Shown here in pieces: positions 17,945 through 61,036 of a DNA stretch of 64,000 bases. The notes below the pieces were generated by a model that saw only the letters and a program-made list of their open reading frames with translations, had not been told where the DNA came from and made no database searches. Within the stretch, counting starts at the first letter, position 1. Each line of letters begins with the position of its first letter. The stretch is taken from positions 7,827,878-7,891,877 of the forward strand of contig CM061139.1 of assembly GCA_030789695.1 (NCBI GenBank), given 5' to 3'. Made by a program: the position numbers and the translations under genes. Source of the DNA: Scilla litardierei. Lineage: Eukaryota; Streptophyta; Magnoliopsida; Asparagales; Asparagaceae.

Positions 17945-20114
17945 ATGGCTGATGCCTATATTACTGGAGCAAACTCTGCTGACAATGATAATGCGGGGGA
18001 ATGGCGAACGGTGGTTAATAAGAAGACTAATAATGCAATGCCTAAAGGGAAGGGGGTTAGAGGAGATTTCAAGTCTCGTGTGCAAAGCGGTGGTCCGCCG
18101 AAGGATAGGGCTCAATCCTCTGGAACTAGGAAAGTGTTTGAGAGGAGGATGTTGAGGCCTGTAGTGGAAATCAAAATAAATCCTCATGCGGTTAAGCAAT
18201 CGTGGTTGGAGGTATGCACAAGCAAGAGGAAGATCTCAGATGTGGTGGAGATGAGTTATATTCTGCCTGAAGTTGATGAAATAGGGGCTTCTATAGCTGT
18301 TCTTCATCAAGAAATCATTGATGAAGCAACTAGGAATTGGGAGAATACTCTGGTTGCTTACGTCCTCGGTGATGTACCATTCTACAGCTAGTTGAAGGCC
18401 TGGGCCATCAGAACGTGGAAGAAGCCGGGCATGACTGTTTTCTCAAGAGAAAACGGATTCTTCTTCTTCCGATTCAAAGAGAAGGCCGACAGTGATGTTG
18501 TGCTTTACGGTGGCCCTTGGATGTTCGACGGGCGCCTCGTCGTGATCCAGCGATGGGCTCCGGACATGGGGTTTGATCGTGATATGCTTTCTTCCGCCCC
18601 CCTGTGGGTTCAGCTACTCAACCTCCCGCTGAAGTTCTGGTCCTTGAAGATCTTGAACATTATCACAAGTGTTCTTGGATCTCCAATCTGCTTGGATAGA
18701 GCAACGACTACAATGGAACGGATGAGTTACGCCCGCTGCTTGGTAGAGATATCGGCGGAGCAGGACCTTCCCATGTCTGTGACCGTCCAAGTCGAAAACG
18801 GTGAGGTATTTGAAGTTGAGGTGAGGTACGAAGGGGCCCCGTCGAGGTGTGTCAATTGCAATTGCTTTGGACATCTCGTCCAGCAGTGTTCATCCATGGC
18901 TGGCGCTGAGAAAGTTGCTGTTGAGGACTCCAAAGTTGAGAAGATAGCTGAGAATGACGTTGCTGAGGAAGCTACTGATGATCCTGGAGCGAGGTACACT
19001 CCTTCAGACGGTACTGTAAGTCTCCCCTCACTTGATTCAGGTCCTTCTTCTCTGAGCATTGGTGTATTTGGGGGTAGTCTCCCTTCTTCTTCAATTCTGG
19101 GGGGGTCAAGGGGATGCTTATAATTGTAATTTTCATGATGAGGGTACTGGGAAATGTACTAAGGATGTGGATGTCTGTTTAGTTGGGACGGGGGGGGGGT
19201 AGCAAACTTGATGTTGCTGAGCCCAAGGGGGTTTGTAATGCTGTTGATACTGCTTTGGCGCCTACTGAGGCTTGTAATCGGGTCAAATTCACGGGGGAGG
19301 CTGAGTCGGCTGATGCTTGTAAAAGAGTGGACTGTAAGGAGGGTGGAGATGGTATTGTAAATGATAGTATGTATGTAGGCGAGAAGAGCATGTGGGATGC
19401 TGCTAAAGCTGATGATGTTGCTGAGATGAGGGCGGATGTATATCCACTGGCTGCGCCCAGTACTAGCAAGTGTTGTAATAGGGTAGGGGAAGTGGCCGTT
19501 ACGCCTGGAGATAAGCAGTCTATTTGGGGGGATAGAGGCAGGAGCAAAGGAGATTTCGCAATAGGGGATGAATCTTCACAGGTCCGTGTCACTGCTGAGA
19601 AATTGTTGGGAAGTGATCAAGCCCATGGGTCTGGGATGTATGTGAAAAAGGCAAAGCTAGCTGTGCCTAGCGTTGAGGAGACGAGAGGCGTCCCATGTAA
19701 CGATGCGAACTGTATTCTTAATGAAATCGGGGGGGGGGGGGGCCGGGGGTCACTAAGCCTGATGGGCACTTGGCGCTCGCCATGCCATGCTCGCCCAACA
19801 ATCCTACGATGGTACCCCGCAACTCTAGCAAGCCTAGGCCGATTAACACTAACCCGTTTAGTGTCTTAATGGGGGATTTCCCTCGGCTAGGAGCTGACTT
19901 GCTTAAGGATTCAAGTGATACCTTAAACACGGATGATGAGCCCGATGATATGACTATCATCAATGAAGCTTGGCATGAGGAACAAGTGGAGTTAAAACTC
20001 AAGAGTAAGGAAAAGAAAAAACTAAAGAGCATCGGGGGGAATTCCTTGAGGGGCACCCGTAAGAGCTCTAGAATTAACAAAGATGGGGAGCACCCCCCTA
20101 CTTCTTTGCAATGA
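17945..20114 (+). pseudogene. LINE ORF1: RNA-binding protein with DUF4283 and zinc knuckle
   Basis: The ATG at 17945 opens a Lys/Arg-rich N-terminus. A TAG at 18389-18391 interrupts it, and the same frame then encodes a DUF4283-like domain with WxFxGxLVVIQRW features. A zinc knuckle follows (CVNCNCFGHLVQQC, about 18850-18890). Frames then change at two long G runs (19181-19190 and 19728-19742), which suggests slippage in homopolymers. The last piece holds the NPFSVL motif typical of the plant L1 ORF1 tail and a Lys-rich end. Its TGA overlaps the ORF2 ATG as ATGA at 20111-20114. The protein would coat LINE RNA. Confidence 0.8.
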
Positions 20115-21265
20115 CGTTACTCATTTGGAATACCCGGGGGCTTAACAACGTCGCTAGGCGTAATGAGCTCAAATTCCGGGTCCGTAAACATACCCCATCA
20201 ATTTTTGGGCTTCTCGAAACCAAGGTTGTTGCCAAAAATGCCTCCAGAATTTTCAAATGCTTTCCAAAGAACTGGATATCCATCGACAATCGCACCTCTC
20301 ATCCGAATGGTCGTATTGTCATCATGTATAACCCTGACGTCTGGAAGTTTATGGCTAATGAGATGACGGCACAGCACATCTCTATGAAATGTATCAACGT
20401 TGCGGGGTTTATCATGATGGTTACCATCGTCTATGCCTCCAACTCTTATCATGAGCGTAGATCCCTTTGGAAGGACATCACAGTTGCGGCCAACAAATTT
20501 AAAAATACCCCTTGGATCTTAGGGGGTGACTTCAATTGTGTTAGATACACCACGGATAAAGTCGGGGGTAGGATGATTGATGGGCACATGGTTGATGAGT
20601 TCAATGACTGCATCAATACCAGTGCTCTCATGGAGCTTAAAACGGTTGGCAATACTCTGAGTTGGACTAATCGTAGTATTGGGCATAGGCGTATTACTGC
20701 CACCCTTGATCGTTCCTTTTGTAATAGCTCCTGGATGAATGCTCTCACTGCTTCCTATTGTGAGTATAGCGCTGGTGGTACTAGTAACCACGCTATTCTC
20801 ATTATCCATACCCATCAGGTCGGGGGTGATGATCCTAAGCCCTTTAAATTCTTCAATGCTTGGCAACGCTGTCCTGAGTTTCAAAATGTGTTGAAGGAGC
20901 AGTGGTACATCAGTGTTAGTGGTTGCCCGATGATTAGGCTGGTGGCTAAGCTTAAAAGCTTGAAATTTGAGCTCAAGAAGTTCGGGGCGGTTTTTAGAGA
21001 GAACAATGATGTCTTTAAAATTCACATGGAGCTGGATAATGTTCAAAACAATCCGATGCTGTGTTATTGTGCTGAGCTGTAGAAAAAAGAGCATGACCTG
21101 ATTAATCAGCTTGCTGAAGCTAATGAGATAGAAGAGTCTATTCTCAAACAAAAAAGCAGGCAGGATTGGCTTCACCTGGGTGATCGTAACTCTCGCTTCT
21201 TTTATACCGCCATGCGGGCTAGGCAAAGCCACAATAGCCTTAGGCACCTTATCTCTATTGATGGT
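20111..21265 (+). pseudogene. LINE ORF2 part 1: AP-type endonuclease
   Basis: The ORF starts at the ATGA overlap with ORF1. Motifs in order are WNTRGLN, LLETKV, VYASN, GGDFNC, a TLSWTN block, a TLDR segment and SNHAILI. These are the APE-type endonuclease blocks of plant L1 elements, which nick the target for reverse transcription. The usual final SDH motif reads SNH here, so a catalytic Asp is replaced. A TAG at 21080-21082 stops the frame. Beyond it the same frame gives the QDWLHLGDRNSRFFY block that normally leads into reverse transcriptase. The Tekay element interrupts it after ATGGT at 21261-21265. Confidence 0.85.
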
Positions 21266-21847
21266 TGTCATGCCCCGCTTCCCAAAGATGGAGGCGAGAC
21301 ATGAAAAGGTCCGCTCAAGCGTGGAGCTGTGAAGCTGCACGCCTGATAAGCGTCAATTTAGTATAAGCAGGTCCCTGTAAACGCAAACGGAGCAATAATA
21401 ATAATAATAGAAAAGGAGACGGATATGAAATACCAATCCCAAAGTTTGTCCACAAAATATTCAACATCACAGAACAAGACCAAACAAAGCACAAACACAA
21501 ACAGAGTATCAAACTAGGTGCCACGCACCGACAACCTAAGCAGTCTAACAAAAACCAGACATAGACACTAAAACTGATCTCCAGTGTTTACGAAGTCCTC
21601 GATCAACGCGGGTTCTGACTCAGCGTCAGCGAACACCGCGTCCACAGCAAGTATCTCAGGCTCGGGCTCTAACATGTGTCACCCAAAAGAGAAAATGGGC
21701 ACATGTCAGCAAGTCGAAAGACTTGTGCAAGGAAACTGAAAGAAAGGTAAACTAACAACCTAGCAGTTAAAGTATGGTGCATGGCAAGTAAAGTAAGGTG
21801 GTAACAAGTAAAGTAAAGTACAAGTAGCAAGTGGTAGTTGTGACATG

Positions 21848-22025
21848 TAATGTCAAGTAACAAGTACAAGGGATCACTCAACGAGTGCCCTATTGCCCGC
21901 AGGCTGTGTTCACGCATCAAGTACAAGGGATCACTCAATGAGTGCCCTATTACCCGTAGGCTGTGTTCAAGTATCAAGTACAAGGGATCACTCAACGAGT
22001 GCCCTATTGCCCGCAGGCTGTGTTG
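21848..22025 (-). repeat. Three about 58-bp tandem repeats with a CACTC-AAC-GAGTG hairpin
   Basis: Each unit has GGGATCACTCAACGAGTGCCC-like sequence, a small hairpin, followed by TATTGCCCGCAGGCTGTGTT. The middle copy has AAT instead of AAC in the loop, which leaves the stem intact. The set recurs in the other LTR at 29108-29278. Confidence 0.85.
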
Positions 22026-23031
22026 AGTTCGTCTTCTGGAACACGAGCCAGAAAGTGTATTAGGCAAGTATGGCGTAGGGGTGCACCTAGCCGGAACAAG
22101 TAGCACTAGTATGTAGCGATGCTACGCAATCACGATGAGTGTTCAAGCATGCAATGACATGAGCAGATATTCGCGTACCGTTAATTGAAATTAAACGTGA
22201 CAGGTAAAATGCAATGACATGAACATATTCGCGTACCGTTAATTTAAATTAAACATGGCAGTTAAAATGCAATAGCATTTAAGGATGCATGGATGACATG
22301 AACAGTTAATACGCGTACCGTTAAGGGAAAGTATACGTGACATATAAGCATGATGAGGGTGACGGACCAAGCTTCGTTGTCAAGCTAGGTAAATGGCGTC
22401 TAGACGGCTATCCTTTCACCGTCTAGTCTCTTTTACGCTAAAGCAAGGGAAATGGCCTAAGACATGGCCCAAATCAAGAGATGCAAGTTTCACTTGCCTG
22501 ATACCGGGATTGACGAGCAATGAAGATCGTCACACAAGCTAACTACAGAATAGATCACTGTTATAGCAAAACAATTATTAGAACAACGATTCTAAATCGA
22601 TTTCTTAATAGAATCCTAATTGTCTAATAATCCATTTTATTAGGGTTTCACAAATGTCAATGTGGGTTATGCTAAAACTAAAGGATCAAGCCTTACCGTG
22701 AAGAAGCGGAGGAACGATGCCGAGCAACCACGGCAACGGAAGAGCGATCCGGCTCAGATCTGAAAATGAGGGAAAAATCTGGAGAAATAGGGTTGGATGT
22801 GGATTTTGGGGGTTTGATGAAAGTTTGAGGAAGATGAGAGGTAGAATGTGTTAAGTGAGGGTTTGGATGATGGATTTTGGGCTTGGGATGAAGGAATAAG
22901 GGTTTGAGGTAGTAGGGGCTCAATGGGGGAGAAACTAGGGTTTTAGGTCATGAGGAGGAAGAAGAAAACGTTTGGAGGGGTATTTATAGAGTTTGGTGGT
23001 GGCTAGGGCAAAACTAGGGTTTCCTGTACTG

Positions 23032-23450
23032 TTTAGTCGGTCAAAGAGCAACCACTGACCGACTAGTTTGGAAACTAGTCGGTCGGTTGACCAACGCAGA
23101 CCGACTAAGTGTAAACAGTAACCCCTGACGAAAATTAGGATTTAGATTTAGTCGGTCAAAGAACAACTACTGACCGACTAGTTTGACATCTAGTCGGTCG
23201 ATGAACGTTCTTAGACCGACTAAGAGTAAGCAGTAACTAGTGTCAAAAATAATTAATGAGTTAGTCGGTTAAAGAAGCATTGCCGACCGACTAGTTTGCA
23301 ACCTAGTCGGTCAACCAACGTTCTTAGACCGACTAACGATAAACAGTAACTCCTGAACATTTAACAAAGCCCACTAGTCGGTTCAAGAAGGTTTTCCGAC
23401 CGACTGGATCGTCATCTAGTCGGTCGGTGCCCCTTCTTACACCGGCTAAT
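23032..23450. repeat. CTAGTCGGTC palindrome array in the Tekay 3' LTR U3
   Basis: Four units of about 100-115 bp are present. Each has two successive hairpins: CTAGTCGGTC facing GACCGACTAG, then CTAGTCGGTCGG facing AGACCGACTAA. Most units are followed by AAACAGTAACT or a close variant. The array lies directly upstream of the TATA box. It is closely related to the array in the copia SIRE LTRs. Confidence 0.9.
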
Positions 23451-23719
23451 GTGCACCGAAAGTTCCGAAATGGAGCACGAAGCTCTGGGATGGTTTCCTA
23501 AGTCTCCTAGGCTCATTCTAACTCTAAGATAACCACGTTATGGAGCCCGTCACAAATGACTTACTCCAAACACGCCGACCGATGGAAGAATCTAGAGAAT
23601 CACGACGAAACGAACGAAAATGAAAACTACGGAGACGGAAAAAGGAAATCGCAACCAAGGAGAAGAAACCAAATATATATATACATAATAAAATCCATAC
23701 ATGAAAACCAGTCGTTACA

Positions 23720-28474: not shown

Positions 28475-29107
28475 TGTCACGCCCCGCTTCCCAAAGATGG
28501 AGGCGAGACGTGAAAAGGTCCGCTCAAGCGTGGAGCTGTGAAGCTGCACGCCTGATAAGCGTCAATTTAGTATAAGCAGGTCCCTGTAAACGCAAACGGA
28601 GCAACAATAATAATAATAGAAAAGGAGACGGATATGAAATACCAATCCCAAAGTTTGTCCACAAAATATTCAACATCACAGAAAAAGCCACCAGGCTAAA
28701 AAGAAAGAGTCTAAAGGCCCAGAACAAGGCCAAACAAAGCACAAACACAAACAGAGTATCAAACTAGGTGCCATGCACCGACAACCTAAGCAGTCTAACA
28801 AAAACCAGACATAGACACTAAGACTGATCTCCAGTGTCTACGAAGTCCTCGATCAACGCGGGTTCTGACTCAGCGTCAGCGAACACCGCGTCCACAGCAA
28901 GTATCTCAGGCTCGGGCTCTAACATGTGTCACCCAAAAGAGAAAATGGGCACATGTCAGCAAGTCGAAAGACTTGTGCAAGGAAACTGAAAGAAAGGTAA
29001 ACTAACAACCTAGCAGTTAAAGTATGGTGCATGGCGGGTAAAGTAAGGTGGTAACAAGTAAAGTAAAGTACAAGTAGCAAGTGGTAGTTGTGACATGTAA
29101 TGTCAAG

Positions 29108-29278
29108 TAACAAGTACAAGGGATCACTCAACGAGTGCCCTATTGCCCGCAGGCTGTGTTCACGCATCAAGTACAAGGGATCACTCAATGAGTGCCCTAT
29201 TGCCCGCAGGCTGTGTTCAAGTATCAAGTACAAGGGATCACTCAACGAGTGCCCTATTGCCCGCAGGCTTTATTGAGT
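29108..29278 (-). repeat. Three about 58-bp tandem repeats (copy in the 5' LTR)
   Basis: These are the same units as at 21848-22025, each with the CACTC/GAGTG mini-hairpin. They lie downstream of the TATA box and so in the leader RNA. Confidence 0.85.
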
Positions 29279-30230
29279 TCGTCTTCTGGAACACGAGCCA
29301 GAAAGTGTATTAGGCAAGTATGGCGTAGGGGTGCACCTAGCCGGAACAAGTAGCACTAGTATGTAGCGATGCTACGCAATCACGATGAGTGTTCAAGCAT
29401 GCAATGACATGAGCAGATATTCGCGTACCGTTAATTGAAATTAAACGTGACAGGCAAAATGCAATGACATGAACATATTCGTGTACCGTTAATTTAAATT
29501 AAACATGGCAGTTAAAATGCAATAGCAGTTAAGGATGCATGGATGACATGAACAGTTAATACGCGTACCATTAAGGGAAAGTAAACGTGACATACAAGCA
29601 TGATGAGGGTGACGGACCAAGCTTCGTTGTCAAGCTAGGTCAATGGCGTCTAGACGGCTATCCTTTCACCGTCTAGTCTCTTTTACGCTAAAGCAAGGGA
29701 AATGGCCTAAGACATGACCCAAATCAAGAGATGCAAGTTTCACTTGCCTGATACCGGGATTGACGAGCAATGAAGATCGTCACACAAGCTAACTACGGAA
29801 TAGATCACTTTTATAGCAAAACAATTATTAGAACAATGATTCTAAATCGATTTCTTAATAGAATCCTAATTGTCTAATAATCCATTTTATTAGGGTTTCA
29901 CAAATGTCAATGTGTGTTATGCTAAAACTAAAGGATCGAGCCTTACCGTGAAGAAGAGGAGGAACGATGCCGAGCAACCACGGCAACAGAAGAGCGATCT
30001 GGCTCAGATCTGGAAATGAGGGAAAAATCTGGAGAAATAGGGTTGGATGTGGATTTTGGGGGTTTGATGAAAGTTTGAGGAAGATGAGAGGTAGAATGTG
30101 TTAAGTGAGGGTTTGGATGATGGATTTTGGGCTTGGGATGAAGGAATAAGGGTTTGAGGTAGTAGGGGGCTCAATGGGGGAGAAACTAGGGTTTTAGGTT
30201 ATGAGGAAGAAGAAGAAAACGTTTGGAGGG

Positions 30231-30240
30231 GTATTTATAG
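30231..30240 (-). promoter_or_regulatory. Tekay LTR TATA box
   Basis: On the minus strand this is CTATAAATAC, about 45 bp downstream of the palindrome array. The equivalent site in the other LTR is at 22981-22990. Confidence 0.7.
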
Positions 30241-30283
30241 AGTTTGGTGGCGGCTAGGGCAAAACTAGGGTTTCCTGTACTGT

Positions 30284-30700
30284 TTAGTCGGTCAAAGAGC
30301 AACCACTGACCGACTAGTTTGGAAACTAGTCGGTCGGTTGACCAACGCAGACCGACTAAGTGTAAACAGTAACCCCTGATGAAAATTAGGATTTAGATTT
30401 AGTCGGTCAAAGAACAACTACTGACCGACTAGTTTGACATCTAGTCGGTCGATGAACGTTCTTAGACCGACTAAGAGTAAACAATAACTAGTGTCAAAAA
30501 TAATTAATGAGTTAGTTGGTTAAAGAAGCATTGCCGATCGACTAGTTTGCAACCTAGTCGGTCAACCAACATTCTTAGACCGACTAACGATAAACAGTAA
30601 CTCCTAAACATTTAACAAAGCCCACTAGTCGGTTCAAGAAGGTTTTTCGATCGACTGGATCGTCATCTAGTCGGTCGGTGCCCCTTCTTACACCGGCTAA
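30284..30700. repeat. CTAGTCGGTC palindrome array in the Tekay 5' LTR U3
   Basis: Four double-hairpin units equivalent to 23032-23450, with a few substitutions (for example GTTGGT for GTCGGT). They form the U3 segment next to the TATA box. Confidence 0.9.
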
Positions 30701-30987
30701 TGTTCACCGAAAGTTCCGAAATGGAGCGCGAAGCTCCGGGATGGTTTCCTAAGTCTCCTAGGCTCGTTCTAACTCTAAGATATCGACGTTATGGAGCCCG
30801 TCACGAATGACTTACTCCAAACACACTGACCGACGGAAGCATCTAGAGAATCACGACGAAACGAACGAAAATGAAAACTACGGAGACGGAAAAAGGAAAT
30901 CGCAACCAAGGAGAAGCAACCATATATATATATATATATATATATACATAATAAAATCCATACATGAAAACCAGTTGTTACAATGGT

Positions 30988-31678
30988 TCTCACAACAATA
31001 CTATTGAGGCGCTCAAAGTTGATGCCCCCAAGTTCTACTCTAGCTTATATAATCAGAATGACTACTGGAGGGTCTTCCCTTGCCTTATCACCAAAAGAGT
31101 TCTTACTAATAATGCTGCTGATTGGGTTGAGAGACCCGTTTGTGCTGAGGAAGTCAAAAATGCCGTTTTCAAATTGGGGCTGACAAAGCTCCGGGGCATG
31201 ATGGGTTCAATGGGTTTTTTTATCAGAACTCTTGGGATGTCATCGGCACAGATGTCACCGTTGCTGTCCTCAACTTCTTCAAATCTGGGAAAATCTATCG
31301 GCAGATTAATCACACTTTTCTTACCCTTATCCCCAAGACTGCCAATGCTTCTGGGCTTGCAGATTATAGTCCAATTTCCTGCTGTAATGTTCTATATAAG
31401 ATCATTGGTAAAATTCTTTGCAACTGTCTAAGTAGGGCGGTTATTGAGCTCATTTCTCCCAACCAAGCGGCCTTCCTCCAAGACCGGTTACTGGCTGACT
31501 GTGCTTTGCTTGCTCATGATTATATAAGGGGCTTCACTAATCCTATGGGGGCTCGGGCCTGTCTTAAGCTTGACTTACGTAAAGCCTTCGATAGTGTTAA
31601 TAGGGAATTTGTCTATTACATGCTGCATCAGATGGGCTTTAAACACAAATTTATTAGCTGGATCTGTGAGTGTATATC
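30988..31678 (+). pseudogene. LINE ORF2 part 2: first half of reverse transcriptase
   Basis: The LINE resumes right after the ATGGT duplication. It encodes the FYSSLY block and, after a one-base frameshift near 31185, the HDGFNGFFY segment. The TLIPK, ISCCNVLYKI, NQAAFL and LDLRKAFDSVN blocks follow; the last carries the first catalytic Asp. The ORF is cut at 31678 by the Athila-like element, just before the region that would encode the QGDPLSP block. Confidence 0.85.
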
Positions 31679-31971
31679 TGATCACTCCTTATTTTACACC
31701 TTTTTTCCGCATGTTTGCATGCCATTTAGATCGCCCAAATCATGTTTTTCACGATATATCGACGATTTTGCGATGCTTTTCACGATTTGTTGTTTTTGTC
31801 GCATTTCAGGTGATTCGGCGCGATTTGGAGTGATCTCGAGATGCGCTTACTCTAGACGGTCACCGACGACCTCCCCGAGGGGTATTTTGCTGTTGGAAAG
31901 GAGCGGAAGAAGAATGGACGTCGCAGGAGCGACGAGGAGGCCAAAATAAGCAGATTGGGCATTTTTTGTGT

Positions 31972-32356
31972 CCCACTCGGCCGAGTGGAGGAGCCACTCG
32001 GCCGACCAGCGAGACACTGCTCGGCCGACCAGTTCAGACACGATTTCTATGTGCACTCGGCCGAGCACCGAAGACCACATCGGCCGAGTGAAGATATCTC
32101 GTCCGCCCGAGTGGCGCCCAGACGAAGCCCCTCCAAAACATCGAAGTTACTGTTTTTCGGCTGCCTGAACTTCAGAAGACCCACTCGGCCGAGTGGTAAA
32201 TCCCGTCCGCCTGAGTGCAGCGAAGTCATCGGCCGAGTGACGACAACTCACTCGGCCGAGCCGCCCCCGAAGTAGAGACCCCTGAAGGCCCTGACTTACT
32301 GGAAAATTACAGGGTTTCTCACTCGGCCGAGCGACTTTTGTCACTCGGCCGAGTGC
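31972..32356. repeat. CACTCGGCCGAGTG palindrome array in U3
   Basis: About a dozen exact or degenerate copies of the 14-bp palindrome CACTCGGCCGAGTG are spread over 385 bp, many in pairs. They end about 80 bp before the TATA-like box. The second LTR has the same array at 42000-42384. Confidence 0.9.
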
Positions 32357-32438
32357 GATGCGCTGCCTGTAGCGAAAACTGCGGAAAACAGGCTGTGCAG
32401 GGGCATTTTGGTCACAATTTTTGGACGATTTTTGGGGC

Positions 32439-32450
32439 TATTTAAACCCT
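32439..32450 (+). promoter_or_regulatory. LTR TATA-like box
   Basis: CTATTTAAACCC, after the palindrome array. It is the only TATA-like element between the array and the hairpin leader. The 3' LTR equivalent is at about 42467. Confidence 0.5.
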
Positions 32451-32831
32451 GTTTTACCCTAGTTTTGGGGGCTCTCTCTTAGATTTTTTGCAGCTTTTTA
32501 GATTAGTTTTTTTAGCTTTATTCTTGTGATTGGAGAAGGAGCAAAACTTGAATTTTTGTTGGATTAATTGAAGAACTACATTGGTTTGCATCTCTTTTCC
32601 CTAAAAATTCTATTTTTATTGTTTATACCATTGTTGTGATGAATTCTATTGCTTATCTCAACGATTATTTTTGTGATCTTGCTATGATTTGTGAGTAGTC
32701 TCCGCGTCTTGGGGCGTGGGGATGAACCCTACAAGCCCACCTTCATATTTGTGATGAATTGGTAGAAATTGAGCTAGAATTGCTATTAGAGATTAGATTG
32801 GGATCGATTTACTACGGATTGCTAGGTATTC

Positions 32832-33137
32832 TTATCAATCAGGATTTGCAAGAGATTGGATCCAAATTTGATAGGAAGCCCTAGAAATCCGAATTGGGTT
32901 GGAGTCGGATTTTTCGAAGTATCGGTTTGCAAGAGATTGGACCGATACTAGGATTCCCGGTTGCAATTCTATACCAATACCCGTTTGCAAGAGATTGGAC
33001 AGGTAGGAACTATCCTAATCTAGATCGTGGACCGAGTTTGCAAGAGATTGGGCTCGGTGCGCGATTGGACGATGATGTTGATCCTAATGCTAGCTTCCCT
33101 AGGGTAGGGTTTGCAAGAGATTGGACCCGACCCTAGG
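32832..33137 (+). repeat. Five tandem hairpins with constant loop TTGCAAGAGATTGG
   Basis: The identical 14-nt loop occurs at 32846, 32927, 32985, 33038 and 33111, each flanked by a different inverted repeat. Stems are GGAT/ATCC (plus outer TATCAA/TTGATA); AGTATCGGT/ACCGATACT, 9 of 9; TACCCGT/ACAGGTA, 6 of 7 here and 7 of 7 in the 3' LTR; ACCGAGT/GCTCGGT, with one wobble; and CCTAGGGTAGGGT/ACCCGACCCTAGG, 12 of 13. They lie between the TATA box and the primer site, so they should be in the RNA leader. Loop conservation with free stem variation argues for selected structure. Confidence 0.9.
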
Positions 33138-33501
33138 ATAGCTATAGACCGGCAACAGCGCGAGAGCGTGAGCTTGGTTCTACATTCAGTTGCAACTAGT
33201 TCATCCGAATTCTCATTCTAGCAATTTTGATACCGATGAACCACATTTATGAAGTATGGTGTGTAGCGGGGATTCCCCATTCCCTAGACGTTCTTTATTT
33301 GATTTGATATTTCGCACATTTGTCTGACGATTGTGACAGGATCGCCAAAGGCAAATTTCTCTTCTTAAATAGCCAGGTTGATCGGAGCAAGCACAGTCAT
33401 TCGTCCTCCCTGTGTTCGATATCCCGCTCGCTGCTACACCGTGCACTTGCGGTTAAACTACAACCGTTCTTTTGGGTCACGTCCCGGAGCGATCAAGTTT
33501 T

Positions 33502-33519
33502 TGGCGCCGTTGCCGGGGA
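33502..33519 (+). other. Primer binding site, tRNA-Asp
   Basis: TGGCGCCGTTGCCGGGGA is an exact complement of the plant tRNA-Asp(GUC) 3' end. It lies 6 bp after the LTR and is characteristic of Athila/Tat elements. Confidence 0.95.
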
Positions 33520-33653
33520 GGCGATTGCGTTTGATTCTTTCTCACCCTAGCTATTCTTTTTATTATTATTATTATCATTATTTTTATTTCTTATTTCTTA
33601 CCTAACCCTTCCACGGTACTAATCATTTCTTTGAAACTCTGTTTCCCCTGTGC

Positions 33654-36424
33654 ATGTACACGAGATCTACGGCGGGCCCTAAAGCTTTATTATTTGATCC
33701 CGAGATCGAACGTACCGCGCGGAGACTTAGAGCGGAAAAGAGACAAAATCCGGAAGGGAGGTATATGACCAACCCGAAAACTCCTGAAGAATTGGCGGCA
33801 AGGATGGCAAGGATAATTTCTATTCGTGATAGGCTTCGGCCTAAGACCTCTTCTACTACCTCGTCCATTGCCGTGCCGCAGTTGGCGGCTGACAAGAACT
33901 TCGAGCTAAAGACTGGATTGGTGGGTTTGATGCAACAAGACCCATTTCATGGGAACGCCCATGAGAACCCCCACTACCACATCCAATTATTCTTGTCAAA
34001 GTGCGCCACATTCCAGATGCCGGGGTCTCCATCGATGCTATCAGACTGCGTCTCTTCCCCTTCATGCTTAAGGACAAGGCACTCTATTGGTTGAGGACGC
34101 AGGCTGACGGAGTCTTCACCACTTGGGACGAGTTGGCGAGTGCATTTATTGATAAGTTCTATCCGCCATCCAAGACGGTGAAGATCCGGAGCGCTCTCAT
34201 GTCCTTCAAGCAAGGACCACAGGAGACGCTCTATGAATCTTGGGAGCGTTTTAAGGATTTGCAGCATCAATGCCCGCACCACAGTATAGAAGATTGGGAG
34301 CTAGTTCATAGCTTCTACAACGGTCTCCAACCGGGGACCAAACAAATTATTGATGCCGTGGCGAATGGTGCTATCTTGTCAAAGACTCCCGAGGAAGCTA
34401 CGGCCCTAATTGAGGAGATGGCCTCAAATAACCAACAATGGGGCGATGAGCGAGGACACTCTACGTCCTCCTTAAACCCAACTAGCATCTACGAGGCAAA
34501 GGCCGTAGCGGAGCTTACGAGCAAGTTTGATTCTCTCCACAAGGTAGTGGAGAGATTGGAGAAGTTCATCACGGAGCCCCAAGGGACCCCTTCCACCTCC
34601 GCGCCGACGAACCAAATGTGTGATTGGCAAGACCAATCTCAAGCCATGTACTCGGGAGGAGAGCAAGTAGAAGGATCCTTGTAGCAAGTAAAATATGTTG
34701 CGGGGAACCAAGGGTATTGGGCCAATCCGGCCACAAGAAATCATCCCGGATTCTCTTACGCCAACAATGAAGGAGCTTTGAACCCGCCACAACAACCACC
34801 TCAACAAGCTCGACCACCACCACCCCAACAACAATACTATCCACCGAGGGGGCCTCCACAACAAAACTTTCAACCAAAGCAACAAGTTCCACCATATAGG
34901 CCTCCCGGATACAACCAAGGGTGGAGGAATCAAAATCAAAACCCTCCACAAGCTCCACAACGATCCGACTTCGAAACTAGAGTGGAGGCGTTCATGGTCG
35001 AGCAAAATAAGGTAAATGCTAGCTTGAAGGCGGGGCAAGACTCCCTTAATACCGTTGTGGCTCAAATATCGGAGCAATTGGCGTTGCTCAATCGGAACAC
35101 TCAAAGATTGCCGGCGCAACCGGAGCAAAACCCACGGGGCAACACGGGCCACATCAATGCCGTAGTTGCAGTTACTACTAGAGGCAGGAAGGACACCACC
35201 CCCGCCATGATTCCTATTGAGGAGCCCGTGGAGGAAAGCTTGGAGCCAATTGAGCCGATAGTTGAAGTTGGAAAGGAGAAGGAGCCACAAGACAAAGAGA
35301 AATCTAGAGCGGAGCAATTGATTGAGGAAAGGCGCTTCATACCACCGGTCCCATTCCCCCAAAGGCTCGCTAGAGCGAAAATGGAAAAAAGGCTAGCAAA
35401 ATTTCTCGAGTACCTAAGAGGAGTTAGCCTTAACATTCCCTTCCTTGACGCCATCGTCGAGATCCCCACGTATGCTAAATTTTTGAAGGACTTGATTTCG
35501 GGGAGCAAAAGGAAGGAGAAGATCATGCTAGCCGAGGAGGGCTCTTGGTTCACCAAGAGAGAGAAGGAGCCGGCAAAATTTAAAGATCCGGGGAGTTTTC
35601 GGATTCCTTGCACCTTGGGCGGCGTCCCTCTTCAAAAGGCGTTGGTTGATCTTGGGGCTAGTGTGAGCCTCATGCCTCTCTCCATGTTCTTAAGGCTAAA
35701 CACCGGGACAAAGTTGAAACCCACCGACATGCGCATTCAATTAGCCGATGGACGGATAACAAGGCCGGTGGGGATTGCCGAAGACATACCGCTACAAGTC
35801 CCGGGTGGAATATGCTTGCCATGTGACTTCGTGATCATGGACGCCAAGGAGGAGGGAGACACTTCATTGATACTTGGACGCCCGTTCCTCGCCACCGCCG
35901 GAGTAATTGTTGACGTGCGCGAAGTCACCCTAACCTTAAACGTCGGCAACATCGAGGTGGAGCTCCACATTCCTAAGGCTATGAAGCACATGCCTTACCA
36001 CGAGGAACTTGACTACATGGACCTCCTCGACGAGGTGATTGAAGAGGCGATTCCTCACTCAATTGGCGCTCTTTTTGACGAAGATTTTGAGGATGGCCTG
36101 GATTTGGGCCACGATGAGAATAGAAATGATTCCCCCGACCTCTCCGCTGAAAATGATGAAGGCGACGCTGATGTCGCAAGGATTCGAGAGCTCTGCAAGC
36201 TCGCGAAACTAAAGTCTCCGAAGAAAGCTCCGCCGGCACGGAGATCGGCATCACCGGTAAAACCGTTGACCGGAGCAAATGCTAGCTTGGGGGAGCCTCC
36301 CCCCAAGACTATTCGAGACAAGAGACCACCGCGGGAGAACACGACGCCGCAACTTCCCAATCCAAGCGTTCTCCCCGGAAAGTTTGATGGGTGCATCTCA
36401 TATGCACCAAACATCCCGCATTGA
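33654..36424 (+). pseudogene. Athila-type gag with aspartic protease
   Basis: The ATG at 33654 starts a basic N-terminus. A frameshift near 34000 leads into the gag core (AIRLRLFPF, DKALYWL, FIDKFYPP, KFYPPSKT, SWERFKDL, CPHH, KTPEEA). A TAG at 34682-34684 interrupts it. The same frame continues through a Pro/Gln-rich linker to the protease, where the catalytic site reads VDLGASVSLMP, the DLGAS form usual for Athila/Tat, followed by LILGRPFLATAG. The frame ends at 36424 where reverse transcriptase would be expected. The product would be capsid plus protease only. Confidence 0.9.
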
Positions 36425-37555: not shown

Positions 37556-39762
37556 AGCACTCGCGGCGTGTCGGGGTACACTCTTTCCACTCTTTTACAC
37601 GCACCGCACTTTTTTCACTTTTCGGCGCGCTCGGGGCCGGTATACCGCCCCGGACACGGCCGCGGTCGAAGAGAGCTTCCGCCAAGCGGAAGCGGTCGGA
37701 TGATGCCGGCCCCTCCCACGAGTTGGAGGACTCACCTCCTCCGTCCCCCACACACCCCGCACACCCAGCACAGCCTGCAGGCCCCGAACACCCCGCACAT
37801 CCTGCAGTGCACCCACAGCCCGCACAGCCTCTCCCTGCCGACCCACAGCCACCACCACCGGCTCCACTGGTCGGGCCGCTCGGGATTACATTTCGAGACG
37901 ATGCACACCGCGCCGTCTTCGAGTGTATCTCCCAGCGCTCGATCGTACCCTCCAGGTTTGCACACCTCACTGACCTAGGACGCCTGGGGGTACTAGAGGG
38001 GATGCTCACGTTGTACGACAACGTGGGCTGGCGAGATTTTCTGCAGGTGTCGGCGGATACTTTTACCCGCCCGACACTTGAGATTTTGAGTTCGATCGCC
38101 CGGACCGACGAGGGATGCTCATTCCGGTTCATGGATCGAGAGTGCCAGGTCACTCTCGATATGATGAGAGCATCCTTCTCGTGGCCCGCTGTCCCCGGAG
38201 CCGATCGCGGTTACGGCCCCACCCATATCCCCCCACCTTCCTTCGACGCCGGTGCCTTCTGGGCCCGGATTACGGGTCACCACGCTACCTTTGACCCTAG
38301 TAGGGCCAAGGCCTCGGCCATTGTCCACCCCTGCCTCCGCATAGCCCAGCGCCTCATGGCGACCACCTTTTTGGCTAGATATGAGCCGGGCACGATGTCT
38401 ACGCCAGAGCTCTACATGCTATATGCGATGACACGTCCCAGAGCTCTATCTAGGGATGGAGACGAGCTTGTCCCCGCCGTCGTGATCGACATTGCGGCTT
38501 GGTTTTTAGACTGCATCATTGTATCGGTGGGCGCTCGCTCACCGATATGCTGCGGCGGTCTGATCACCTTGCTTACCATGATGACCGGCGAGGACCTACC
38601 TGACGACTTGCGACGGGTCCCGGGCCCCACTTCTCTGTCGATAGACGTTATGGCCCGGATGAAGATGCTTCGTCCGCATGGTGAGCGTCACTGGGTCTGG
38701 TTGCACGGCCCTTACGGTGCCGACTACATGATTCTCCCGAGCCCTGCTCGGACTCAGATTGCACCAGCCCACGTCGACTGGCTCCCTGCGATGGATGTTC
38801 TCATCCCCGCTGCCTATGTGCTCGAGGCCGAGGAGGCCGAGCAGGCCCACGCTGCCCACGCTGCCCAGGCTGCCCCCGCAGACCCTGCTGCACACCCTGC
38901 CGAGCCTGCTACCGACCCTGTTGACCCAGTGGCCCCTTAGCCCATACCTAATGTTTCCGCTGCTCCTGATACTTCTGTCCCCACTTCTGTCAGTGTCACG
39001 AGTACCTCAGCTGAGCCCACTTCCACCACTTCCACCATTTCCGCGGCTGTCACCACTATCACCACCACACCCACTACCACCGCTGGCCCTCTGTCTGCTG
39101 AGCCGATTTCCTCTGCCCCACCCGAGCGCCCGCCGACCGTAGTCGAGTGCGGAGAGCCCTCTGTCTCCACTGCCGCTGTATTTTTCGAGAGTGTCGTGGC
39201 GTCTGTCCACACTTCTGTGCCACTGACCTCTCTGGCCGCCTCGCTGCCACTTTTGCACACTTCTTTCACTGCCGCTGCCTCCACTTCTCACCAGCCGGTG
39301 TCCCGGCCTCACACTGAGGCCAGGCCCACATTTGCAGGCACGGCACCTTTTGTCCCCTTCCCTGCTGAGCCTGTTACATACTCTACTCGCGTACGCCAGC
39401 CTCGCCCTGCACAGCCTAGACCGGTGCGTCCCTCTGCCCCACCCCCGCCCGACACTGTACTGCAGAGCATACGTGCTCTTGAGTTGGCGGTGAGTGGTCT
39501 TAGAGGTGACCTTAGGACCCTGTCCTCCACCGTCTCTGCGATGGCTGGACGCTTCGAGCTGATCCCCCAGATCCATTACTGTCTCACCCAGGTTCTGGAG
39601 CGTCTCCCGCGCGTACCCCCACCCACCCAGCAGGTTCCCACACACACTTCCACACACACTAGACCTGCTTCCACTTCCACGCCCACCCCAGCTCAGCAGC
39701 CTACACCACCACCACCACCACCTCCGCCTCAGGACGGAGACGGCGCAGCACCACCTTCTTAG
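37556..39762 (+). pseudogene. Athila-like 3' accessory ORF (env-like position)
   Basis: The frame is open from 37556 with no ATG before about 37723. A first exon or upstream start may supply one. It begins with a basic RSKRASAKRKRS stretch (possible nuclear signal), then a Pro/His-rich repeat (HPAHPAQP), then a folded domain of about 300 residues. That domain has VGWRDFL, a CSFRFMDRECQVTLDMMR block and helical segments, and resembles the plant ATHILA ORF-1/Transposase_32 type. A TAG at 38938-38940 interrupts. The frame then continues through a Thr/Ser/Pro-rich region and a predicted helical SIRALELAVSGLRGDL segment to 39762. I see no signal peptide, so a true envelope role is doubtful. Function is unknown. 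Confidence 0.7.
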
Positions 39763-41705: not shown

Positions 41706-43415
41706 TGATCACTCCTTATTTTACACCTTTTTTCCGCATGTTTGCATGCCATTTAGATCGCCCAAATCATGTTTTTCACGATATATCGACGATTTTGCGA
41801 TGCTTTTCATGATTTGTTGTTTTTGTCGCATTTCAGGTGATTCGGCGCGATTTGGAGTGATCTCGAGATGCGCTTACTCTAGACGGTCACCGACGACCTC
41901 CCCGAGGGGTATTTTGCTGTTGGAGAGGAGCGGAAGAAGAATGGACGTCGCAGGAGCGACGAGGAGGCCAAAATAAGCAGATTGGGCATTTTTTGTGTCC
42001 CACTCGGCCGAGTGGAGGAGCCACTCGGCCGACCAGCGAGACACTGCTCGGCCGACCAGTTCAGACACGATTTCTATGTGCACCTCGGCCGAGCACCGAA
42101 GACCACATCGACCGAGTGAAGATATCTCGTCCGCCCGAGTGGCGCCCAGACGAAGCCCCTCCAAAACATCGAAGTTACTGTTTTTCGGCTGCCTGAACTT
42201 CAGAAGACCCACTCGGCCGAGTGGTAAATCCCGTCCGCCCGAGTGCAGCGAAGTCATCGGTCGAGTGACGACAACTCACTCGGCCGAGCCGCCCCCGAAG
42301 TAGAGACCCCTGAAGGCCCTGACTTACTGGAAAATTACAGGGTTTCTCACTCGGCCAAGCGACTTTTGTCACTCGGCCGAGTGCGATGCGCTGCCTGTAG
42401 CGAAAACTGCGGAAAACAGGCTGTGCAAGGGCATTTTGGTCACAATTTTTGGACGATTTTTGGGGCTATTTAAACCCTGTTTTTACCCTAGTTTTGGGGG
42501 CTCTCTCTTAGATTTTTTGCAGCTTTTTAGATTAGTTTTTTTAGCTTTATTCTTGTGATTGGAGAAGGAGCAAAACTTGGATTTTTGTTGGATTAATTGA
42601 AGAACTACATTGGTTTGCATCTCTTTTCCCTAAAAATTCTATTTTTATTGTTTATACCATTGTTGTGATAAATTCTATTGCTTATCTCAACGATTATTTT
42701 TGTGATCTTGCTATGATTTGTGAGTAGTCTCCACGTCTTGGGGCGTGGGGATGAACCCTACAAGCCCACCTTCATATTTGTGATGAATTGGTAGAAATTG
42801 AGCTAGAATTGCTATTAGAGATTAGATTGGGATCGATTTACTACGGATTGCTAGGTATTCTTATCAATCGGGATTTGCAAGAGATTGGATCCCAATTTGA
42901 TAGGAAGCCCTAGAAATCCGAATTGGGTTGGAGTCGGATTTTTCGAAGTATCGGTTTGCAAGAGATTGGACCGATACTAGGATTCCCGGTTGCAATTCTA
43001 TACCGATACCCGTTTGCAAGAGATTGGACGGGTAGGAACTATCCTAATCTAGATCGTGGACCGAGTTTGCAAGAGATTGGGCTCGGTGCGCGATTGGACG
43101 ATGATGTTGATCCTAATGCTAGCTTCCCTAGGGTAGGGTTTGCAAGAGATTGGACCCGACCCTAGGATAGCTATAGACCGGCAACAGCGCGAGAGCGTGA
43201 GCTTGGTTCTACATTCAGTTGCAACTAGTTCATCCGAATTCTCATTCTAGCAATTTTGATACCGATGAACCACATTTATGAAGTATGGTGTGTAGCGGGG
43301 ATTCCCCATTCCCTAGACGTTCTTTATTTGATTTGATATTTCGCACATTTGTCTGACGATTGTGACAGGATCGCCAAAGGCAAATTTCTCTTCTTAAATA
43401 GCCAGGTTGATCGGA
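41706..43415 (+). mobile_element. 3' LTR of the Athila-like element, right end missing
   Basis: Near-identical to 31679-33385, with a handful of substitutions by eye. It carries the array (42000-42384), TATA (about 42467) and the five hairpins (42864-43166). Homology stops at GTTGATCGGA, so the last 110 bp including GATCA are gone and LINE sequence follows at once. Confidence 0.9.
42864..43166 (+). repeat. Five constant-loop hairpins, 3' LTR copy
   Basis: This is the same set as 32832-33137. Two stems differ between the LTRs: here the third stem is fully paired (TACCCGT/ACGGGTA) and the first has GGGAT/ATCCC instead of GGAT/ATCC. The loop is unchanged in all five. Confidence 0.9.
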
Positions 43416-44880
43416 TTTGTCTGATGATTTGTTGGATTTTTGTCGTGCCAATTCTAAATCTTTTGAGGGAATTAAAAATCTGCTCACTGAGTTCAAATCC
43501 TTCACTGGCCTGGAAGTTAATTGGAATAAAAGTGCTGGTATATTCAGTAAAGGGGCCAAGGGACCTAGTAGTCTTGCTGATATTCTGGGTATTCGGCGCG
43601 TGCACTCCCTATCCACTTATTTGGGCCTCCCTCTGTCCCCTAAATACCCTAATGCTGCCATGTACGGTCGTCTGATTGATAAATGCAAGAGCAGGCTGCA
43701 GGGTTGGTCTTCATCTCTTTTATCCATAGCAGGGCGTATTGAGCTTGTCCGGTCTGTGATATACGGCATGGTTAGTTTTTGGATGCAAGCCTTTAGAATG
43801 CCTCAGTCCGTTCTGCGTTCTCTCACTTCCTTGTGCAGGAAATTTATATGGGGGAAGAATCACCTCTGGGCATGGAATGATATGTGTGCCCCCAAACATG
43901 AAGGGGGAGTGGGAATTAGGAATTTCACTGAACTTAATAACGCTTATGGGGTTAAACTGTCATGGCGCATGCTTACCCACAAAGGTATTTGGGCATCTCA
44001 TATGAGGAATCAGTATCTGAGCAATTCTGGGTTGTTTCGGGCAACTGCTCATCCCATGCATTCTGGAACCTGGAAATTCATCCTTCACTGCCGTGAGTTC
44101 ACCAAAAAGCTTACCAAACGTGTTGTCAGGGATGGTACTACTACATTATTCTGGTATGATAATTGGTTACCCTGTGGGCCTCTTTGTGATACTTATGATG
44201 TCCCTGCTGGGGAGGAGAGGAATATGGTTTGTGTTTACTGGTCTTCTGAGGGATGGGTGGATAACAATTCTCTGCGGCCGGTCCGACATCTTATCAATAG
44301 GGTGGTTTTGTCTGAGGGCAGCGACTCTTGGTCATGGGTTACAAAGTCTCCTACTCTTCACAATGCATGGGATGGTTCGCGGGCTATTAAGCCGCTTTTC
44401 CCTACTACAAGGTGGTCTGGTTTCAGGGGCACATCCCCAAGATGGCTATTACCTTATTACGAGCTTTCCACAGGAAACCGCTTACCCGGGATAAGCTCGT
44501 GCATTGGGGAGTGCATACTTCACCCTACTGTGTTTTATGTTCTGATAATGTTCATGAAAGCATGGATCATCTATTTTTTGAATGCCCCTATACTAACTAC
44601 CTCCTTTGCAGGAGCTTCCTTAAAATGGGGGTCACAACTACACTACCCACTACTTTGGCTGGTATTGGAGACCTGATACTCTCACTCTTTCACGGGAAGA
44701 ACAATGTGGGGAGATTGGCCAAAACTGTTTTGGCAGTGATGACTTGGCATATTTGGCAAGAGAGGAACAGAAGGATCTTTGAAGGAAACAATCAGATTTA
44801 GACTCTTCTTTTTGAAAATATCGCTGATGACGTCAGAATTGCCCTGAGGCAAGCTGATTGGGACCATGATTCTGATTTGG
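43416..44880 (+). pseudogene. LINE ORF2 part 3: second half of reverse transcriptase and zinc-binding tail
   Basis: The piece opens with SDDLLDFCRANSKSF, the DD-containing catalytic block, then LEVNWNKS, YLGLPLSPKY and GRLIDKCKSRLQGW. These are the usual plant L1 blocks after the active site. About 80-100 codons expected between 31678 and here are missing. Near 44410 the frame shifts. The other frame then encodes the zf-RVT domain (CVLCSDN.HESMDHLFFECPY) and a WHIWQERNRRIFE tail ending about 44800. Confidence 0.85.
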
Positions 44881-46249: not shown

Positions 46250-46780
46250 AACTAGTCGGTCAAAGAACAACCACTGACCGACTAGTTCATCAACTAGTCG
46301 GTCGGTCAATCAACATGAACCGACTAAGTGGTGAACATGGAAAAGGTCGAAGTTCAGACTTAAGGAACTAGTCGGTCAAAGCACACTTTCCGACCGACTA
46401 GTTTCACAACTAGTCGGTCGGTGAGTTAACTTAGACCGACTAAGAGATAAAACAGAAAGTCTGAGCACAAATAGATTTAGTCGGTCCAAGAACAAAAGTT
46501 GACCGACTAGTTCATCAACTAGTCAGTCGCCAAATGTACATGGACCGACTAACGACAAACAGTAACTAGGCATGTACAGTAGAAGCTCAACTAGTCGGTC
46601 TAAGAAGCATCACTGACCGACTAGTTCACAAACTAGTCGGTCGGTGAGTCAACGTAGACCGACTAACTGTAAACAGTAAAGAGCTATGATTTGAGAAGGC
46701 AAACTAGTCGGTCCAAGAAGGATTGCCGACCGACTAGATCACCATCTAGTCGGTTGGTTCTTCTTCTTGAACCAACTAAC
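46250..46780. repeat. CTAGTCGGTC palindrome array in the SIRE 3' LTR U3
   Basis: Five double-hairpin units of about 105-120 bp, built like those of the Tekay LTR. CTAGTCGGTC faces GACCGACTAG across about 15 bp, then CTAGTCGGTCGG faces AGACCGACTAA; CAGTAACT-like spacers separate units. The last unit shares specific spacer bases with the last Tekay unit (CAAGAAGG, GATC, CATCTAGTCGGT). Confidence 0.9.
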
Positions 46781-47182
46781 ATGCACAAGAAGTCGCGAAT
46801 CGAAGCGCGATGCTTCGGGAAAGTTAGTATGGACTTCTTACTAGTTCCTAGCTCTAAGATAGGAGAGTTATGAAGATTAAAACGTAAGACCTACTCAAGG
46901 CTTAACATTCTACGGAACGAAGCTAAAAGACTATAAATAAAACTCGACGAACCGTCTTCGAAAGCTTCGATCCGAATCTTCATGACTTCTAAAATGGTCC
47001 AAAAGCTTCAACGAAGCTTTAGGCATAAGATCATGTGCTTTGAGAAGTCTCGAGACGTCGCTTTGGATGTTCATATGAATTTGGCGACGATCTCCATAAC
47101 TGCGCTCACAAATTGTTTGTTCATAATATATTTATGTTTGTTCATCATCCAAAACCAAATCCGGGGAGTCCAATATCCAACA

Positions 47183-50067: not shown

Positions 50068-50261
50068 CAACTAGTCGGTCACAGTTCAAGCACTGACCGA
50101 CTAGATCACGATCTAGTCGGTCGGTCAATGAGCTTGAACCGACTAGTTGTAAATAGTAACTGAAGCCAAATTTCTTGATAAGATTTAGTCGGTCTAAGCT
50201 TATTCACTGACCGACTAGAACTGAATCTAGTCGGTCGGCCAATGAACTTGGACCGACTAAG
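50068..50261. repeat. Internal copy of the CTAGTCGGTC array in SIRE
   Basis: Two double-hairpin units of the same type as the LTR array, including the AAATAGTAACT spacer, lie between pol and the 3' ORF and outside the LTRs. A partial extra unit (AAGTCGGTCGG) is at about 50029. Confidence 0.9.
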
Positions 50262-50509
50262 AGAGTCCAAAAATTGAAAATTTTGAAATTTGATTTCTCT
50301 CCTAATTGCACTTCGACGAAACATCAACATACTCTCATTAATCATTATACTACCCCATTAAACATCGAAAATCTGAAATTTGACGTTTTCGAACAAATCG
50401 AGCGAAAATTCCGAAAATTCAACAAACATCCAGAAAATTTCAAATAAATCTAGCATGTGCAAATATAAAGAATTGAATAGCATGCAAGATTATTGAATAA
50501 AAATGAATC

Positions 50510-59292: not shown

Positions 59293-59297
59293 TTCAA

Positions 59298-59757
59298 TTA
59301 CGATTTTCCCCTGCAAAATCTTTGTTCCCCAAAAAATTATTTCCACGGTCAAAATTGCGCGGAACAACAAATTTACGTAAAAATATTTAACGACATGGAC
59401 GCATTCGGCATGAAACAACAAATTCCACGCGGAACAACAAATTAGTGTAAAAACATTTAGCAGGCGCCTTCGGCAGGGAACAACAGATTAGTTTAAAAGA
59501 AATTTTCGGCGTGGGCGCCTTAATTAAGATTTTCCCCCGCAAAATCTTTGTTCCCCAAAAAATTATTTCCACGGTCAAAATTGCGCGAAACAACAAATTT
59601 GCGTAAAAATATTTAGCGACATGGACCTATTCGGCATGAAACAACAAATTCGGCTCGGAACAATAAATTAGTGTAAAAACATTTAGTGGGCGCCTTCGGC
59701 GCGGAACAACAAATTAGTTTTAAAAAATTTAGCAGGCGCCTTCGGCGCATATAAAAA
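59298..59757. repeat. About 228-bp tandem duplication
   Basis: Two units start near 59301 and 59528, sharing GATTTTCCCC, TTTGTTCCCCAAAAAA and a run of GGAACAACAAATTAG with GGCGCCTTCGGC words. They lie inside the presumed Helitron-like element. Beyond it, 59760-60540 is AT-rich with nothing I can identify. Confidence 0.75.
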
Positions 59758-60866: not shown

Positions 60867-61036
60867 AAGAGAGTTTTTGTGTCATCAACAACTAATATAC
60901 AATTAATTGTGCGTGGGGCAGCTTCAGACATACGGCCTCCGAAACCAAATGAGTTTGAAATAGCTGCCAAAAGAGAGTTTTTGTGTCCTCAACAACTAAT
61001 ATACAATTAATTGTGCGTGGGGCAGCTTTAGACATA
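60832..61036. repeat. About 104-bp direct duplication
   Basis: Two copies, starting near 60832 and 60936, cover the putative splice acceptor and the start of the fragment above. They differ at only a few positions. Confidence 0.75.

Follow-up and report, generated by a model that had tools for sequence, protein, structure and literature searches.

The long terminal repeats (LTRs) of a retrotransposon within the 64-kb stretch of DNA analysed here (the window) contain one 14-nucleotide sequence repeated five times, each time between arms that differ from those of its neighbours, and this raises the questions of whether the repeats are hairpins maintained by selection, on which strand they act, and what might recognize them. 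The sequence-only reading of this locus had proposed five stem-loops with a constant loop in the leader RNA, possibly a binding site for Gag or a host protein.

An ATHILA-type retrotransposon

Judging from the gag, protease and ATHILA domains predicted between its two LTRs, the window element is an ATHILA-type LTR retrotransposon, with the following parts:

31679..33495, + strand: 5′ LTR; TGATC...GATCA ends read off the sequence, start word at 31679
32439..32446, + strand: TATA-like word TATTTAAA, read from the sequence
33502..33519, + strand: primer binding site TGGCGCCGTTGCCGGGGA, read from the sequence
33965..34684, + strand: gag frame (Retrotrans_gag, PF03732, E 4.4e-20)
34685..36424, + strand: protease-domain frame (PF13650, E 4.4e-06)
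37558..38940, + strand: ATHILA frame (PF03078 above cut-off, E 6.8e-13)
41706..43415, + strand: 3′ LTR; start word at 41706, terminal ~110 nt missing by comparison with the 5′ LTR

The arrangement is that of the ATHILA lineage of Ty3/gypsy elements, with gag and protease flanked by the LTR pair and accompanied by a primer site, and with the ATHILA frame placed after the gag-protease part and before the 3′ LTR. The LTRs are 99.06% identical over 1710 aligned positions (self-BLAST, 31679-33386 against 41706-43415), and the primer binding site is presumably a match to tRNA-Asp. The top match of the gag among 15 is a date-palm protein, which suggests a monocot host, the retrotransposon content itself pointing to a plant; a CCHC knuckle is absent from the three forward frames scanned in the window gag region, and likewise from the window side of the alignment to the date-palm relative, which itself has a CCHC-like string (seen by eye) yet no zf-CCHC among its Pfam domains.

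A tandem array of hairpins in the leader

Five hairpin units and a sixth hairpin lie in the 5′ LTR, and a second copy of the array lies in the 3′ LTR:

32831..32875, + strand: hairpin unit 1 (motif 32846-32859), from motif search and folding
32918..32949, + strand: hairpin unit 2 (motif 32927-32940), from motif search and folding
32978..33005, + strand: hairpin unit 3 (motif 32985-32998), with one mismatched pair here that is paired in the 3′ LTR
33023..33066, + strand: hairpin unit 4 (motif 33038-33051), from motif search and folding
33098..33137, + strand: hairpin unit 5 (motif 33111-33124), from motif search and folding
33145..33182, + strand: sixth hairpin, a GCGC-GAGA-GCGU apex on an outer stem (GAGA at 33162-33165), its extent taken from the folds
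42860..43211, + strand: second array copy in the 3′ LTR, with motifs at 42875, 42956, 43014, 43067 and 43140 and the GAGA of the sixth hairpin at 43191

The constant 14-mer occurs exactly five times in each LTR, as first described (32846-33124 and 42875-43153), and at no other mismatch-free site in the 64-kb window. The arms, as also claimed, differ between units yet are complementary when folded, and the case as a whole has come out stronger than it was originally put. The second LTR does keep every loop, but where a single stem had been said to be better paired there, two are: unit 3, and unit 1, in which the 5′ LTR has A·A in place of the G-C of the 3′ LTR, the pair having been lost through changes on both sides. 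Similarly, the array of five stands, and the sixth GAGA hairpin directly downstream adds to the count; in every one of the 78 copies with a placed unit 5 there is a stretch resembling it (at most 6 substitutions in 23 letters), which has the main inner form in 57. A motif-blind scan of the window for like-looped hairpins no more than 250 nt apart recovered the array, with the six innermost arm letters differing by 1-5, and gave no pair in any of five mononucleotide block shuffles; its other output was several tandem repeats whose stems recur along with their loops (distance 0-2). The array was absent from all ten 10-kb stretches chosen regardless of motif, one of them adjoining the window.

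The copies compared below number 82, all from one genome, 80 of them from the first 7 Mb of contig C1 and two from the window. The copies were each retrieved by one or more exact apices, a selection that biases the apex statistics, lowering the motif rate, and leaves those of the stems unbiased. Among the first 72, five in which one or more units could not be located were excluded from the trees, giving 67 copies and then 77 with the addition of ten more. The TATA-like word is located 361-425 nt 5′ of unit 1 in 63 of 67 copies, and because it precedes that unit the array is predicted to lie in the RNA; in the window element the transcript would start about 30 nt 3′ of the word.

The sequence-only reading had asked that the leader be folded against shuffled controls. 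The segment 32826-33215 does fold below its dinucleotide shuffles (z -3.86, 0/100), but so does its complement (z -4.04, 0/100), and because the two score alike folding energy cannot pick the strand. In the minimum-energy fold of the 5′ LTR copy, units 1, 2, 4 and 5 form and unit 3 does not. Three GNRA hairpins are present at probability 0.5 in the 5′ leader of the window element, against 0.10 in shuffles and 0 in the antisense, and at probability 0.2 there are five in the 5′ LTR and six in the 3′ LTR.

The apex module and its inner pair

The 14-mer is not the open loop for which it was first taken, but a GNRA-capped mini-hairpin, consisting of a U·G pair that extends the outer stem, a UG bulge on the 5′ side, a CAA/UUG stem of 3 bp, and a GAGA tetraloop of the GNRA class; the open 14-nt loop is rejected because the inner stem forms and covaries. 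Exact matches in the 3.68-Gb genome number 167,774 for the A-U form of the 14-mer, against 5 for a reversed-pattern control, and 32,129 for the C-G form, in which the last inner A-U is swapped to give a CAC/GUG stem, whereas the unpaired mixtures at this pair come to 247 (C·U) and 304 (A·G). The corresponding odds ratio is about 70,000 by arithmetic, the copies being related and hence not 200,000 independent events. Unpaired forms are nevertheless scarce, and the strongest evidence for the inner stem comes from the C-G form. The letters are constrained besides pairing, since a pattern allowing G-C, U-A and their two mixtures has 150 genome matches against 30 for its control. Of the 385 units in 77 copies, 372 have a GAGA tetraloop and 377 a GNRA one of any kind, and the C-G inner pair is found in unit 4 of 67 copies, in unit 5 of 19, and in none of units 1 to 3. 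The total of 199,903 exact apices, divided by five, suggests a family of about 40,000 LTR equivalents. A known Rfam element was also considered and rejected, as the region 31600-33700 gave four matches, with E up to 5 and all under gathering scores.

Covariation and strand of the structure

Among the same 385 units the outer stems comprise 45 distinct left and 62 distinct right 7-mers, paired at 0.928 of positions; with the right arms re-dealt, pairing is 0.632 across all units and 0.883 within units. On a tree of 77 copies built from flanks and spacers only, without stems or motifs, there were 11 pair-keeping double changes among 50 base pairs, against a mean of 1.27 and a maximum of 6 in 500 simulations with independent columns, and doubles not keeping an existing pair were 5 of 16, against a simulated mean of 3.85. 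The paired cells were 3641 of 3850, compared with a simulated mean share of 0.781 and a maximum of 0.855. Control pairs in 67 copies gave 0, 0, 0, 2 and 0 pair-keeping doubles when slid, and 0.25 per 35 when drawn across units. In a rougher Monte Carlo, with coincident changes counted whatever their outcome, the mean was 5.28 (sd 2.08, maximum 13 in 2000), against 16.2 doubles observed. Ties in the ancestor reconstruction are broken at random, so that double-change counts vary slightly between runs; the pair-keeping doubles were 8 outer and 5 inner with 67 copies, and 6.6 outer and 4.6 inner, or 11 jointly, with 77. The columns that are often unpaired are positions 6 and 7 of unit 2 (paired in 52/77 and 30/77) and positions 5 and 7 of unit 5 (50/77 and 40/77), and the remaining 31 outer positions are paired in 71 to 77 of the 77 copies.

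A G-U pair is tolerated in the RNA that carries it, whereas the mirror change is A-C there and G-U only in the antisense RNA, and mutation alone is expected to produce the sense- and antisense-type wobble changes equally. On internal branches, which correspond to lineages still copying, there were 21 sense-type pair-keeping changes against 5 of the antisense type (p 0.0025, 77 copies), and on terminal branches, which mostly reflect decay after insertion, 33 against 30; the 67-copy version of the test gave 18 against 5 and 27 against 25, respectively. A sense excess confined to internal branches indicates a structure selected in the sense RNA of replicating lineages. It fits selection on sense RNA, and neither a DNA site nor a neutral palindrome would predict it. 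The covariation test that the sequence-only reading had called for, run on 77 copies, thus supports a selected structure in the sense RNA, and arms mutating independently were not seen.

The rates of change follow the parts of the hairpin. Internal-branch changes per column are 0.19 in the motif (a rate lowered by the way in which the copies were found), 0.83 in the left stems, 1.17 in the right stems and 1.50 in the spacers; outside the array they are 1.88 downstream, 2.64 in the upstream leader and 3.11 in U3, values inflated by flank columns that align less easily. On terminal branches the motif has 0.66, against 0.86 to 3.33 elsewhere. In 20 divergent representatives (identity in flanks and spacers never below 0.57 between pairs and 0.73 on average, self-comparisons included) the conserved block spans about 42835-43235, the sixth hairpin included. 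In the array, then, selection acts on tandem hairpins of the sense RNA, whose apex is almost frozen and whose stems drift yet stay paired. The stems had been described as free to drift, and this is accurate for their letters, which vary within limits, but not for the innermost pairs, which vary little.

A second ATHILA family with a different apex

The 92 best ATHILA-domain matches in the genome score 95.8-108.2 bits, compared with 48.7 for the window's own frame, and eight loci downstream of such matches were fetched (L099-L106). Seven of these (L099-L101 and L103-L106) have a common LTR, and L102 has neither this LTR nor its hairpins. The second-family LTR resembles that of the window only in about 75 nt near the 3′ end, at 77-78% (L099-L101). 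The leaders of all seven loci that have it contain two GGGA hairpins, 77 nt apart, whose apices are CGC/GCG and CAC/GUG over a bulged A (the bulge as read from the sequence) and whose outer stems differ. At probability 0.5 L099 has two GNRA hairpins, its antisense none and its 30 shuffles 0.07 on average, and L100 and L101 have two each, with shuffle means of 0.17 and 0.07. Covariation was not seen within this family, as 99 of the 100 matches listed (of 12,356) have an A-U inner pair and one has A·C; because the apex is nearly invariant, the case here rests on the likeness of the two hairpins to each other.

A separate feature of L099, at its positions 264-320, is a set of repeated CCGATCGG-type palindromes just 5′ of a TATA-like word, reminiscent of Sirevirus boxes.

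Short elements without detectable gag

Elements with ATHILA-type LTRs, an interior of about 4 kb and no detectable gag are seemingly a frequent size class beside the 10-kb elements, accounting for 8 of 20 LTR pairs sorted by spacing (contig C1, e.g. 2307963 and 2313874). Short and long were judged by LTR spacing, which is 5.1-6.0 kb in the former and 9.8-11.3 kb in the latter, with one pair at 20.1 kb. The LTR regions of the short pair L067/L068 are 97.75% identical across 1957 positions; the short pair L051/L052 is only 86.7% alike and perhaps not one insertion, and the pairs L060/L061 and L055/L056 align along part of their length only.

Two short interiors were read, one nearly whole (L107, 4001 bases, from the L067/L068 pair) and one in part (L108, from a second insertion). 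Comparison of L107 with the gag, protease and ATHILA frames of the window gave nothing better than E 0.23, the 15 gag relatives gave no hits in it, against 26 in the window's own interior, and no Pfam domain was found in the seven of its nine ORFs that were scanned. It nevertheless keeps the primer site beside the 5′ LTR, with one mismatch, and its end matches the 3′ LTR junction of the window element. L108 is 96% identical to L107 and has no gag match. Exact apices make up 65 of 77 at short spacing (16 copies) and 108 of 120 at wide spacing (24 copies), and paired stem positions 508 of 539 and 774 of 840, respectively. The array is thus retained by elements that would need packaging in trans, as judged from two interiors, one of them partial.

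What might read the array

The reading that we favour, and to which we give about an even chance, is that the array is a set of repeated cis-acting sites for Gag or a Gag-associated protein, by which RNA would be selected for packaging or assembly. The leader would carry five hairpins, or six with the downstream one, and five of them would present one apical recognition module on a lower stem whose letters may be largely free provided that they pair. The apex is a putative protein binding site, and its repetition could let an oligomer bind with avidity. The likeliest ligand would be the element's own Gag or a Gag-associated protein, and the array would then be a signal for packaging or assembly by which genomic RNA is sorted into virus-like particles; long elements may supply the Gag that packages the gag-less short ones, which bear the same array. 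Three observations point to Gag as the likeliest reader: the array is kept where gag is not detectable, each of the two families in this one host has an apex of its own, and tetraloop hairpins have a role in packaging in some retroviruses (PMC516450). Several findings count against this reading: no CCHC knuckle in the gag frames scanned, four stem columns that are often unpaired, a unit 1 pair lost in the 5′ LTR of the window element, and 5 of 16 double changes that kept no existing pair. The original suggestion of a Gag or host-protein site for packaging therefore stands as the best reading, backed by the gag-less elements, and as a candidate.

The main rival, in our estimate an unlikely one, is that a host protein binds the hairpins for RNA export, localization or stability. 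The constitutive transport elements of some retroviruses act through repeated internal loops, and a host ligand would suit an identical repeated apex, free stems and an array kept where no gag is detectable. However, the two ATHILA families of this host do not share an apex (GAGA with a UG bulge in one, GGGA with a bulged A in the other), and an element-encoded ligand fits two apices in one host better than a single host protein does.

We see only a slim chance that the array controls translation through the long leader, by internal entry, shunting or repression. A long structured leader is predicted to precede gag, but the array persists, about as well paired, in elements that have no gag match and whose scanned ORFs yield no Pfam domain; an array serving only the translation of its own gag should have decayed in them, which argues against such a role. 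Slimmer again is the prospect of a copying artefact, in which reverse transcription or repair uses one arm as the template for the other, so that palindromes correct themselves without selection. Such a process is able to make matched changes in both arms, and 9.4 of 20 internal-branch changes at broken outer pairs did restore pairing, but it leaves unexplained the frozen apex, the restricted letters of the inner pair, and a sense-type wobble excess found on internal branches only.

Dimerization by kissing of TTGCAA palindromes is highly improbable. The A-U form of the apex does contain a 6-nt palindrome, TTGCAA, but half of it falls in the inner stem, and the 32,129 copies of the C-G form have TTGCAC and no palindrome; a self-complementary loop is not maintained, and kissing as a conserved feature is rejected, which makes the dimerization role mentioned in the sequence-only reading unlikely by this route. 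Least probable of all are DNA-level palindromes, whether a transcription factor site or cruciforms, for although other plant LTRs are described as having repeated palindromic boxes (PMC2829016), a palindromic DNA site would keep its letters and these stems vary from unit to unit, the wobble excess is of the sense type, and the array lies 3′ of the TATA-like word.

Returning to recognition by Gag, we tentatively propose an extension, namely that ATHILA families may carry lineage-specific address codes, in the form of repeated GNRA leader hairpins with an apex of their own read by their own Gag, and that gag-less elements could persist by using the same address. If so, the location of the code in the LTR means that transcripts from any such LTR would bear it. 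The family of some 40,000 LTR equivalents offers a short, repeated and covarying candidate signal that is open to in vitro testing, with natural controls at hand in the short elements without detectable gag and in the second family with its different apex.

Relation to known systems

The array has two properties expected of a retroviral-type Psi, a conserved structure in the sense RNA and retention by elements that would need packaging in trans. GACG tetraloops of alpha- and gammaretroviruses take part in viral RNA packaging (PMC516450, in part); these are likewise tetraloop hairpins in the RNA of LTR elements, but the window array is of the GNRA class, has a bulged apex, has five to six units inside the LTR and 5′ of the primer site, and is known here from sequence. 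In MS2 and STNV a short motif recognized by the coat protein recurs in several stem-loops (PMC3662417), whereas the window hairpins are in tandem in one retrotransposon leader and their ligand is only proposed.

Among plant elements, the dimerization and packaging signals of BARE are kept in BARE2, which is unable to make its own Gag (PMC3735527); these too are conserved signals in a plant LTR element, but one of another superfamily, Ty1/copia (PMC12786077), and the available text describes no tandem array with a constant apex (PMC3735527). The LTRs of Sireviruses contain repeated palindromes with a constant CGG-CCG core, 5′ of the TATA box, as possible cis-acting transcription sites (PMC2829016, available text). 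They resemble the array as repeated palindromic boxes in plant LTRs; however, the array has a constant tip, stems that vary between units, and a position downstream of the TATA-like word, and the Sirevirus repeated motif is ruled out. The genomic RNA of yeast Ty3 has mapped structures that include a hairpin proposed for kissing-loop dimerization (PMC11381356), but the words 'tetraloop' and 'packaging signal' are absent from the text available and no repeated apex is described in it. A 2025 review of plant LTR element biology discusses packaging, with no stem-loop, secondary structure or psi in its accessible part (PMC12786077), and the ATHILA hairpins of PMC11410651 are, in the portion available, synthetic RNAi constructs. 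No comparable array was found among literature titles and the openings of abstracts, a scope outside which most subscription journals fall. A two-unit pattern gave no hits in viral contigs, and in the same contigs three stretches fit a gag pattern, none of them a relative.

Other repeats in the window

The missing end of the 3′ LTR is accompanied by an apparent deletion of adjoining LINE sequence (43385-43430, by eye). A LINE-like element, spanning 18392-44676, is seemingly interrupted by two LTR elements; its pieces include a DUF4283 domain (18392-19123), an endonuclease domain (20078-21082) and RVT_1 (31149-31949), and between them lie the ATHILA element and a Ty3/gypsy element whose repeats span 21266-23719 and 28475-30982 and whose genes are read from the minus strand. 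A Pfam search of the frame 43411-44676 gave no match. The repeat-flanked ends of the Ty3/gypsy element and of a Ty1/copia-like (RVT_2) element share tandem repeats of about 115 nt, with roughly 70-73% identity, at 23034-23490, 30285-30741, 46250-46820, 56744-57314 and 50069-50264. These are rich in TAGTCGGTC/GACCGACTA palindromes in which the stems are constant and the loops vary, the reverse of the ATHILA array. The copia-like element also contains PF20167, a putative plant transposon protein, at 48122-49726 on the minus strand. Short tandem duplications are found at 59296-59730 (spacing 226 nt, 91%) and at 60830-61037 (104 nt, 97% identical).
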